Assembly: GCA_902551185.1 (NCBI GenBank)
Contig: CACDCN010000004.1
Coordinates: 25,001-58,088 of the forward strand
Direction of reading: 5' to 3'
Length of the DNA: 33,088 nucleotides
DNA from: an uncultured SAR86 cluster bacterium
GTDB taxonomy: Bacteria; Pseudomonadota; Gammaproteobacteria; Magnimaribacterales; D2472
Shown in pieces: positions 21,948-25,505 of this stretch. Within the stretch, counting starts at the first letter, position 1; each line of letters begins with the position of its first letter. The notes beneath the pieces are model-generated. The model searched no databases. It worked only from the letters and a program-made list of their open reading frames with translations, and was not told the DNA's origin. The position numbers were made by a program, and so were the translations under genes.

Positions 21948-22009
21948 AATTAATTATAAATAAAACTAATGCTTCACTTTGTATTTTTTGAAGTTTATCC
22001 TAGATAACA

Positions 22010-22429
22010 ATGAAAAAGATAATATTTATCCTAATTATATTAACAGCTAATAATTTGATCCTTGCTGAACAAAATTCAAAATTTTTTAATGAAATTAAGG
22101 AAATACTGCCAGCAAAAGAAGTTTTTAAAATAACTTTTTTGGAAAATAATAAAAATTTAGAAATTAATTGGCATATAGAAGAGGGTTATTACCTTTATTT
22201 AAATTCTGTTGGCATAGAAATTGATAAGAATAAAGGCAAGTATAAGATAATAAGTGCCAATTTATATGATCATGAAGATGAGTTTTTTGGAAAGACTAAG
22301 ATTATTAGAAATAAATTAAAAATCTCTATAAATAATCTAGAAATAAGTGATAATAAGGACATAAATATATATTATCAAGGTTGTTCAGATAAAGGCTTTT
22401 GTTACCCTGTTCAAAACTTAAAAATTTAA
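22010..22429 (+). CDS. Stand-alone DsbD N-terminal (alpha) domain protein
   Basis: This 139-aa periplasmic protein matches only the first domain of DsbD, which passes electrons to DsbC, DsbG and CcmG. A signal peptide covers residues 1-19 (ending LILA). The cap loop DEFFG is at 90-94 (E. coli DEFYG). The redox pair C125-x5-C131 lies in YQGCSDKGFCYP, nearly identical to E. coli. The chain stops right after this domain, so the eight-helix membrane domain and the C-terminal thioredoxin domain are missing. Its place directly before aroQ is where full-length dsbD lies in Pseudomonas, so it looks like a shortened dsbD in place. The electron donor is unknown. Confidence 0.9.
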   Translation: MKKIIFILIILTANNLILAEQNSKFFNEIKEILPAKEVFKITFLENNKNLEINWHIEEGYYLYLNSVGIEIDKNKGKYKIISANLYDHEDEFFGKTKIIRNKLKISINNLEISDNKDINIYYQGCSDKGFCYPVQNLKI

Positions 22430-22472: not shown

Positions 22473-22904
22473 ATGAAAATATTAGTATTAAATGGTCCAA
22501 ATCTTAATCTTCTAGGTATTAGAGAGGAAGATGTCTATGGATCAGAAACACTTGAAGAAATAGAATTAAAGCTTAAAAAAATTGTTGAGGAATCAGAGTG
22601 TGAACTAAACTTTTTTCAAAGCAATGCTGAGCATGAGCTTATTGAAGCCATTCATGATGCATATAAATCTAATACTAATAAAATTATATTTAATCCTGCT
22701 GGATATACGCATACTAGTGTCGCACTTAGAGATGCTCTCTTAGCAGTTAAGATTCCTTTTTTTGAAGTTCACATCTCAGACATTGAATCAAGAGAAGATT
22801 TTAGACAAAAATCATACTTCTCTGATATTGCTAAAAAAGTATTTAGTGGTCATGGTACAGATGGTTACACCCTTGCTTTAAAAGAAGCTATAAAAGATAA
22901 ATAG
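22473..22904 (+). CDS. aroQ: 3-dehydroquinate dehydratase, type II
   Basis: This dodecameric shikimate-pathway enzyme removes water from 3-dehydroquinate. The 143 aa carry the N-terminal [17 protein letters not shown] with catalytic Y22, then [32 protein letters not shown] (73-88) and [14 protein letters not shown] with H99. All are type II signatures. It sits between the DsbD alpha-domain gene (43-nt gap) and the accB stub (8-nt gap), keeping the dsbD-aroQ-accB order seen in Pseudomonas although both neighbours are truncated. Confidence 0.97.
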
Positions 22905-22912
22905 GAAATAAT

Positions 22913-23083
22913 ATGGACATAAGAAAAATTAAAACTTTAATAGAGATGCTTGAAGATTCTAACCTTAAAGAAATTGAGGTTAGTCAAGGAAATGAATCAG
23001 TAAGAATTTCTAAAGCTGATAATAAAATAGCTACAATTGAGACAAATCAGGTTTCTCAAAAAGATATCTCAGAAAATAGTTAA
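22913..23083 (+). CDS. accB: AccB N-terminal stub (biotinyl domain absent; possible pseudogene)
   Basis: This 56-aa reading frame is collinear with the start of the biotin carboxyl carrier protein of acetyl-CoA carboxylase. MDIRKIK, LIE, E-I-E-V-S, and ESVRIS all match E. coli AccB, where the same segment is residues 1-34. It then enters a polar linker and stops at TAA, exactly where the Ala/Pro linker normally precedes the biotinyl domain. The EAMKM biotinylation motif is absent, and accC, which normally follows, is absent too; leuS begins 16 nt later. The start is supported by AGGA with 6-nt spacing. No internal stop or frameshift is seen. It is either a deletion remnant or a retained regulatory domain. 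Confidence 0.9.
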
Positions 23084-23099
23084 GTTTTAGAAAATTAAA

Positions 23100-25505
23100 A
23101 TGAGTTCTAACTATAAGCCCCAATTGATTGAAAAAACCATTCAAGATAAATGGGATAAAGAAGAAAGATTTCTCGCTAAGATAGATGATAGAGAAAAATT
23201 TTATTGTTTATCTATGTTCCCCTACCCCTCTGGAAAGCTTCATATGGGTCATGTAAGAAATTACACAATTGGTGATGTAATCTCAAGATACAAAAGAATG
23301 AATGATTTTAATGTTTTTCAACCAATGGGCTGGGATGCTTTTGGATTACCAGCAGAAAATGCAGCAATAGAAAATAAAGTAAATCCAAAAGATTGGACAA
23401 ATGCAAATATTGATAATATGAAAAAACAACTTAAATCATTAGGTTTAAGCTATGACTGGTCAAAAGAATTACGAACATGTGACCCAAAATACTATAAATG
23501 GGAACAGCTAATATTTAAAAAGTTCTATGATGCTGGATTAGTGTATAGAAAAAAATCAATAGTAAATTGGGACCCAGTTGATGAAACAGTTTTAGCAAAT
23601 GAGCAAGTAATAGATGGAAAAGGATGGAGGTCTGGAGCACAAATTGAGATTAAAGAGATTGATCAATGGTTTATCAAAATAACTGAGTATGCTGAAGAAC
23701 TCCTTGATTCACTGGATGATTTGGACTGGCCTGAAAATGTAAAGTTAATGCAAAAAAATTGGATTGGAAAATCTAATGGGGCTGAAATTAAATATAAGAT
23801 TGATGAATCAGATGAATATCTGACAACTTTTTCAACAAGGCCAGATACTATTTTTGGAGTATCTTTTCTTGCTATTTCACCAAATCACCCACTAGCAATT
23901 GACCTATCAAAAAAGGATCAAAACATTCTTGAATTTCTTGAAAAATGCAAAGATATAAAAGCAGCTGAAGCAGATATAGCTAAGGCAGAAAAATTAGGAA
24001 TAGATACTGAAATTAAAGTCATACATCCTCTTACGGGAGAGAAATTACCATTATGGATTGGCAATTTTGTTCTACTTGATTATGGAACAGGTGTAGTTAT
24101 GGGTGTTCCTGGTCACGATTCACGGGATTATGAATTTGCCACTAAATATGAATTAAATATCAAACAAGTAATTAAGACAAAAGATGATGATCTTCCTATA
24201 ACTGAAAATGGTATTTTAATTAATTCAGATAAATATGATGGGATGACTTCTGAAGAAGCTTCTAATGGAATAATTAAAGAACTTGTTAAGTTAGATTCTG
24301 GAGCGCATTTAATCCAATTTAGATTAAGGGATTGGGGTATAAGCCGACAACGATACTGGGGTTGTCCAATACCTGTAGTCTATGAAAATGGTGTGCCCAA
24401 AGTAATTGAAGAAAAAGATATGCCAATAAAGCTTCCTGAACTTGATAAGAATTCTCCACCAATACCTTTAAGCCAAAATAAAGAATTCATAGGTATTAAA
24501 GATGGTGTAATAAGAGAAAGTGATACTTTTGATACTTTTATGGATTCTTCTTGGTACCATGCCAGATTCACATCTTCGAATAATGAGGATCAAATCTTTG
24601 ATGAAAATACTGATTATTGGCTCCCAGTGGATCTTTATATTGGAGGAATTGAACATGCGATTTTACATCTCTTGTACTCTAGATTCTTTCACAAAGCATT
24701 AAGAGACATTGGTTTAGTGGAAGGAGATGAACCTTTTAAAAAATTACTTACTCAAGGCATGGTTCTTAAAGATGGTGCAAAGATGTCAAAATCTAAAGGT
24801 AATACTGTTGACCCCCAATCTTATATTGAAAAATATGGAGCAGATACAGTAAGACTTTATATGATGTTTACTTCCCCACCAGAACAAAGCCTTGAATGGA
24901 GTGAGTCATCAGTTGAGGGTGCATCAAGATTCCTTAAAAAAATCTGGAACTTAGTTAATGGAAGAAAATATAAAAAATTTAATAAAAAACTAGAATTTAA
25001 TAAAGAAGAAATGTCTGTTAGAAGAAAATCTCATGCGACATTAAAAAAAGTTGAAAATGATTATGAGGTTAGGTTTGCATTTAATACAGCAATTGCAGCA
25101 ATAATGGAGCTTATAAATTTTATACCTGATGAATATAGAAATGAGGATGCTAGCGATGCTCAAAAATATTGTTTAGATGAGGCAATAATGTTCACATTAA
25201 AGATGCTCTCACCGATTTCTCCTCATATTTGTGAACATCTATGGAATGATTTTTATCTAGATGAATCATCCATTGATAAATGGTGGCCCAAGTTCGATGA
25301 AAATTTATTAGAAGTAGAGGAATTCGAATTAATTATTCAAGTAAATGGTAAAGTTAGAGGAAAAATAAATATAGATAAAAACATAGAGCAAAAAGAAATT
25401 GAATCTTCGGCATTAAATGTTGAGAATGTTAAAAGTCATATCGGTTCTTCAAAAATTAAGAAAGCTATTTATATAAAAGAAAAGCTTATTAATTTTGTAA
25501 TTTAA
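23100..25505 (+). CDS. leuS: Leucyl-tRNA synthetase
   Basis: This class I synthetase charges tRNA-Leu. The ATP-binding HIGH box is HMGH at 48-51 ([19 protein letters not shown]) and KMSKS is at 561-565. The CP1 editing domain is present, with [11 protein letters not shown] and [18 protein letters not shown]. At 801 aa it is about 60 aa shorter than E. coli (860 aa). No Shine-Dalgarno precedes the ATG, so translation may depend on ribosomes leaving the accB stub 16 nt upstream. It leads the conserved leuS-lptE-holA block. Confidence 0.98.

Follow-up and report, generated by a model that had tools for sequence, protein, structure and literature searches.

The analyzed stretch of DNA (the window) comprises 33,088 nucleotides of contig CACDCN010000004.1 from the uncultured SAR86 cluster bacterium GCA_902551185.1 (genome G000). 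It contains an open reading frame of 56 amino acids that corresponds to the N-terminal domain of AccB, here called the stub, in the gene order dsbD_N-aroQ-stub-leuS. leuS starts 16 bases past the stub and accC is absent there. The features of the locus are as follows.

21972..21993, + strand: imperfect inverted repeat CTTCAC-N11-TGAAG over a sigma70-like promoter, before dsbD_N; candidate operator (pattern count)
22010..22429, + strand: dsbD_N, encoding only a DsbD N-terminal domain, first gene of the run (PF11412, E 1.8e-18)
22473..22904, + strand: aroQ, type II dehydroquinase, directly upstream of the stub (PF01220, E 9.3e-56)
22913..23083, + strand: the stub, a stand-alone AccB N-terminal domain of 56 aa (TIGR00531, 4hr7, 19 intact stubs)
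22913..23014, + strand: conserved core of the stub, codons 1-34 (pN/pS 0.061 among ten g1 stubs, pair counts, AlphaFold2)
23015..23083, + strand: variable tail and stop codon, probably derived from the AccB linker (near-neutral difference ratio; stub length of 51-58 aa in 19 genomes)
23084..23099, + strand: closed gap where relatives carry the AccB biotinyl domain and accC (aroQ-accB-accC-leuS in G061 vs aroQ-stub-leuS in stub genomes)
23100..25505, + strand: leuS, directly downstream of the stub (named via sequence and gene order, not by family search)

The stub starts with ATG, contains no internal stops and is immediately preceded by TAGGAAATAAT; a purine-rich, ribosome-binding-like stretch is found before most stubs. 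Residues 1-45 could be aligned with positions 1-45 of the NCBIfam model TIGR00531 (BCCP) with an E value of 9.9e-8, and residues 1-36 matched the AccB chain in PDB structure 4hr7 with an E value of 9.5e-9. As a member of the AccB/BCCP family the stub thus has the N-terminal domain, but its TIGR00531 score of 32.6 bits lies below the curated cut-off of 115.2, and the reading frame stops before the biotinyl domain with the EAMKM lysine. A Pfam search of the stub gave no match above the cut-offs. The stub resembles AccB as modeled by TIGR00531 in its first 34 residues, which are near-identical to those of full AccB in relatives, and in its position after aroQ; it differs in the missing biotinyl domain and biotin lysine, and in that no AccC, AccA or AccD was identified in its genome. 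The initial annotation had described an intact AccB N-terminal domain of 56 aa without biotinyl domain and without accC at the site, and both the TIGR00531 match and the directly adjoining leuS agree with this. AlphaFold2 predicted a helix (residues 3-15) and a beta-hairpin of two strands (20-25 and 28-35); confidence was moderate, with a mean pLDDT of 73.6 and values of about 75-88 for residues 1-40. When the PDB was searched for this fold, no match at E 0.001 or better was obtained, and the top match, a human Ragulator chain with E 0.16, was attributed to chance.

Intact stubs of 51-58 aa were identified in 19 of the 107 genomes of the window's GTDB family, belonging to three genera. Frameshifts in relatives, which the initial annotation had named as a sign of decay, were seen in none of the 19 stubs, nor were internal stops; two of the 19 stubs read contain an ambiguous base. 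A full-length accB split over two frames in G044 (59% complete) was regarded as a broken full accB and excluded from the stub count. Scanning GTDB contigs with the stub alignment yielded 45 loci, 17 with a stub (51-58 aa) followed by leuS and 28 with a full accB followed by accC. The taxon labels of these loci were SAR86 (36), only (Gamma)proteobacteria (7) and Pseudomonadales (2). One stub genome, G053 of genus g8, is a single contig of 1,229,821 bases. That the arrangement is an assembly error is very unlikely, as it occurs in 19 genomes including the single-contig G053, with no accB-accC seen at the stub loci.

In a tree of flanking proteins (six proteins, 32 genomes), the stubs of g8 (G053) and g9 (G091) were placed apart from those of the window's genus, g1. 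A single origin of the g1 stubs was rejected by an AU test on the flanking genes (p 2.7e-8), because G055 and G073, which carry accA, accB and accC, nest among the stub genomes. In G055 and G073 (63 and 71% complete, respectively), neither accD nor malonyl-CoA decarboxylase (MCD) was identified. Since the g1 stubs are not monophyletic and those of g8 and g9 stand apart, the truncation has several origins, with one or more in each of the three genera, or spread by recombination, provided that lost genes are not regained.

Selection on the stub was estimated from differences between related genomes. Over codons 1-34, ten non-redundant g1 stubs had a pS of 0.716 and a pN of 0.043, and eight g1 full-length accB genes a pS of 0.618 and a pN of 0.034. 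For g1, dN/dS of these codons was 0.02-0.035, a rough value with synonymous sites near saturation. In eight close stub pairs, nucleotide differences in codons for the same amino acid (S) and codons for a different amino acid (N) were counted, resulting in S 34 and N 3 for codons 2-34 and S 12 and N 30 for the tail (p 5e-9); tails were compared ungapped, which may inflate N. Without the most divergent pair (G077-G056), the counts were S 22 and N 1 for the core vs S 10 and N 16 for the tail (p 2e-5). With a ninth pair, G064-G080, which had been excluded from the test for sharing part of its path with another pair, the counts were S 45 and N 6 for codons 2-34 and S 12 and N 45 for the tail. Random change is expected to be non-synonymous or to create a stop in 77.5% of cases, and the tail was indistinguishable from neutral (p 0.36). 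Six pairs of full AccB had S 41 and N 2 in codons 2-34, which was not detectably different from the stub core (p 0.66). The N-terminal domain is therefore not visibly relaxed after the loss of AccC and carboxyltransferase.

Judged from these substitution patterns, selection acts on the protein that the stub encodes, with a strong protein-level constraint on its first 34 codons. The alignment and dN/dS comparison suggested in the initial annotation thus resulted in a strongly constrained core and a near-neutral tail, and its proposal that the stub is retained rather than debris is upheld by the pair counts and by the 19 intact stubs. That the stub is a decaying pseudogene, or an artefact of assembly or completeness, is extremely improbable: the genomes are mostly drafts and the gene is truncated, but codons 2-34 show three N against 34 S where ∼78% of random changes are expected to be non-synonymous or to introduce a stop, and the same structure recurs in many separate assemblies, among them the single 1.23-Mb contig of G053. 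It is also very unlikely that the stub is a leader or spacer ORF that translationally couples aroQ and leuS and whose product is irrelevant. Its short distance to aroQ and the ribosome-binding-like stretch before most stubs would fit such a leader, but the core conserves amino acids and not bases (pS 0.72, near saturation, and pN 0.043), and the gap between stub and leuS varies among the stub genomes.

Acetyl-CoA carboxylase (ACC) is held to catalyze the initial reaction of fatty acid synthesis in bacteria, for which it is normally essential. Among the 107 genomes of the family, TIGR00531 exceeded its cut-off in 74 and TIGR00515 (accD) in 75. In the 19 stub genomes, searches with TIGR00531, PF02785, TIGR00515 and PF01039 did not identify a full accB, accC, accD or AccA-type match, where AccA-type means a ∼320-aa frame on PF01039 positions about 230-450, like accA of G061, and not a match to AccA's own model. 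The window's genome, G000, had no AccC-size PF02785, TIGR00515 or AccA-type PF01039 match, an absence that is weak on its own because this genome is only 77% complete. A full accB elsewhere in G000 was rejected, since one of the two TIGR00531 matches was interpreted as the stub and the other as the 651-aa alpha subunit of a fused carboxylase; Biotin_lipoyl matches were found only in this subunit and in a 401-aa frame. A single-polypeptide ACC (AccS type) was rejected as well, the 19 stub genomes having no PF02785 match beyond the fused alpha. The set of accC, accA and accD that defines a heteromeric ACC was thus found neither in G000 nor in any of the 19 stub genomes. Except for G053, the ACC-less genomes consist of several contigs each and are 60-94% complete.

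Of the 34 g1 genomes, 11 have accD without MCD, 15 have MCD without accD and eight have neither (63-90% complete). In none of the 15 MCD genomes could a full accB, an AccC-size PF02785 match, accD or an AccA-type PF01039 match be identified. The genomic sites of the missing genes were also read. accA is present between dnaE and tilS in G061, G076, G054, G095, G097 and G049; this site is closed (dnaE-tilS) in all 16 readable ACC-less genomes, 15 with a stub plus G078, in which MCD is present and the stub locus was not found. It was unread in G075 (contig edge) and in G000, G072 and G084 (no dnaE match). The accD site has the order trpA-accD-SPOR-like-cvpA in G061 and G095, and was read in the 15 g1 MCD genomes and G053, with G091 left out. 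In all 15 g1 MCD genomes (G000, G056, G057, G064, G065, G066, G074, G077, G078, G079, G080, G081, G082, G084, and G085), MCD replaces accD (trpA-MCD-SPOR-like-cvpA), as located by gene order in two of them:

L110:10986-12248 (G079): MCD at the accD position, trpA-MCD-SPOR-like-cvpA-purF
L147:9798-11108 (G000): MCD at the accD position, same order

The accD site of G053 is empty, with trpA directly followed by the SPOR-like gene and MCD elsewhere in the genome. In G091, MCD adjoins the pip-aroK pair, as in its genus. From these gene contents and sites, the whole acetyl-CoA carboxylase appears to have been lost, and not merely left unassembled, in several SAR86 bacteria. The initial annotation had expected either a functional accB/accC pair elsewhere or an unusual pathway; the pair was not found in G000 or its stub relatives, which leaves the unusual pathway. 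A role as assembly factor of ACC, which it had also considered, is unsupported because none of accA, accC and accD was found and those of their sites that were read are closed or reused.

The MCD protein of G079 matched PF05292 (E 8.9e-92) and PF17408 (E 1.5e-15), and Ser298 and His354, which we take to be the catalytic pair, are invariant across 35 aligned MCDs. A match to MCD was found in 16 of the 19 stub genomes and in three there was none. The MCD tree included 33 of the family's 51 MCD genomes and two plasmid MCDs; its 'other' rows include G028 (59% complete), which is also without accB and accD matches. The MCDs of 17 ACC-less genomes formed one clade spanning three genera (98/97). MCD of G053 is 81-83% identical to g1 MCD, and six other proteins compared were 51-81% identical. 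Horizontal transfer of the ACC-less type of MCD is therefore likely from these phylogenetic data. The single clade is moderate evidence, because holding the G091 MCD with its own genus was not rejected in the AU test (p 0.085). MCD alone does not exclude ACC, because MCD and accD co-occur in other genera. Two sites, L268 and A383, are fixed differently in the ACC-less and the 16 other SAR86 MCDs, which may reflect ancestry alone.

fabD was identified in 31 of the 39 genomes searched, including 17 of the 19 stub genomes, and a synthase of ∼404 aa, which we named FabB-type, in 21 of 24 genomes searched, including 13 of the 14 stub genomes in that set. Since both are kept, malonyl-CoA still appears to be needed. 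A fabD-fabG cluster (L105-L108, fabG named via sequence and order) was observed in G061, G079, G053 and G000, with no recognized fabF or fabH alongside and the ∼404-aa synthase gene elsewhere. For MatB of the matABC system, no clear orthologue was found; the Tritonibacter MatB query gave only AMP-binding enzymes with 29-36% identity, in 14 of 39 genomes at E 1e-50, and malonate utilization through MatB plus MCD could thus not be assigned. By counts and lengths only, AMP-binding genes of similar lengths were present in G079 (3), G053 (4) and G080 (5) and in G061 (5) and G097 (4), which have ACC. The malonyl-CoA feeding FabD may come from the fused alpha/beta carboxylase, from MCD in reverse, from external malonate or from an unrecognized enzyme.

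Because ACC seems to be lost in these abundant marine bacteria yet fabD and the FabB-type synthase are kept, malonyl-CoA would have to come from elsewhere, or a known enzyme would have to act in a new way. It is a speculative and rather doubtful scenario that free-living SAR86 lineages make fatty acids without ACC, with a horizontally shared MCD (possibly carboxylating, or beside an unrecognized malonyl-CoA source) replacing it and the AccB N-terminal domain surviving as an independent regulator or adaptor that AccB always carried. No title or abstract reporting ACC loss or a retained AccB stub in SAR86 was found, nor was there any such report among titles and abstracts on bacteria without ACC, on streamlined SAR86 or on the AccB N-terminus, subscription papers, preprints and supplements being outside the scope of these searches. 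The main text of a paper on SAR86 isolates (PMC11582366) contains neither 'carboxylase' nor 'malon'.

On balance, we favor the interpretation that the stub is a functional small protein, a module of the AccB N-terminal helix and beta-hairpin that was kept after the whole ACC was lost. As the stub core is conserved like that of full-length AccB while ACC genes were not found, the domain probably serves something other than ACC in the stub genomes. The stub would then mediate protein interaction with a partner that is not part of ACC, and this other job may already have belonged to full-length AccB. In this sense, the frozen stub resembles a natural separation-of-function experiment, in which the constraint on the AccB N-terminus seems independent of AccC and carboxyltransferase. 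Plant BADC and actinobacterial AccE, too, have no catalytic role and serve ACC-type enzymes as accessory proteins. BADC has retained a biotinyl-like fold, and AccE has an unrelated sequence; unlike the stub, each of them acts together with an ACC.

The sole remaining biotin-dependent carboxylase consists of the fused alpha subunit (641-651 aa) and a beta subunit of ∼550 aa encoded in one operon (L101-L104), which resembles acyclic-terpene (Atu) or MCC operons. The beta subunits of G061, G079 and G053 are 92-94% identical and only 66% identity was found in G000, which suggests that the operon was exchanged between lineages. The stub might be a docking or assembly subunit that helps this enzyme to carboxylate acetyl-CoA. 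In Chloroflexus, according to PMC11077971, the N-terminal hairpin of BCCP docks and joins biotin carboxylase dimers, and a beta-hairpin lies within the conserved core of the stub. Since AccC is gone, such a role could apply only to the fused alpha, which is present in 15 of the 19 stub genomes and in a 16th, G080, with its first 327 residues reaching the contig end. In BC1 of Chloroflexus aurantiacus the hairpin oligomerizes and docks BC, as would be possible for the stub, but there it is fused to biotin carboxylase, whereas the stub is without an AccC-type partner. This docking role is unlikely by our estimate: alpha and beta also occur in genomes with ACC, the high identity of beta between G061, G079 and G053 gives no sign of a new role, and neither subunit was found in G081, G082 and G085 (75-87% complete).

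Alternatively, the stub could bind another retained protein, e.g., AroQ, MCD or a PII protein, which we also consider improbable. An interaction between PII and AccB is mentioned in a passage of PMC5437119, and MCD is present in most stub genomes. aroQ adjoins the stub in 19 of 19 stub genomes, but this adjacency is equally true of full accB.

Regulation by the stub of its own operon, dsbD_N-aroQ-stub-leuS, is the leading, though still tentative, guess for the small protein's function, made by analogy with E. coli. There, the AccB N-terminal domain autoregulates accBC according to a section of a review (PMC3896788). The domain is the same and a regulatory action of its own has been proposed; in E. 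coli, however, it is part of full-length AccB and acts on accBC, whereas the stub stands alone without accC and its regulation is putative. A regulator would need no ACC. The initial annotation had also named a retained regulator as an option, which is possible in view of the published E. coli autoregulation and the operator-like repeat at the operon promoter. The stub turns the old question of AccB autoregulation into one that is directly testable in E. coli.

The candidate operator was found once in the window, where 0.02 matches are expected by chance. It recurs at the corresponding position in 12 of the 40 genomes read, namely in 7 of 19 stub genomes and in 5 of 21 genomes that have full accB. 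The sigma70-like promoter that it overlaps is our own reading of the sequence, and the repeat may be part of the promoter alone, because 12 of 19 stub genomes lack it and 5 of 21 full accBC operons are preceded by it. In each of the 40 genomes (of the family's 107) in which the locus was read, the dsbD_N-only gene encodes 136-159 aa, and is thus not locally truncated. Its ATG lies ∼8 bases past the −10-like hexamer, by which a leaderless transcript would be possible.
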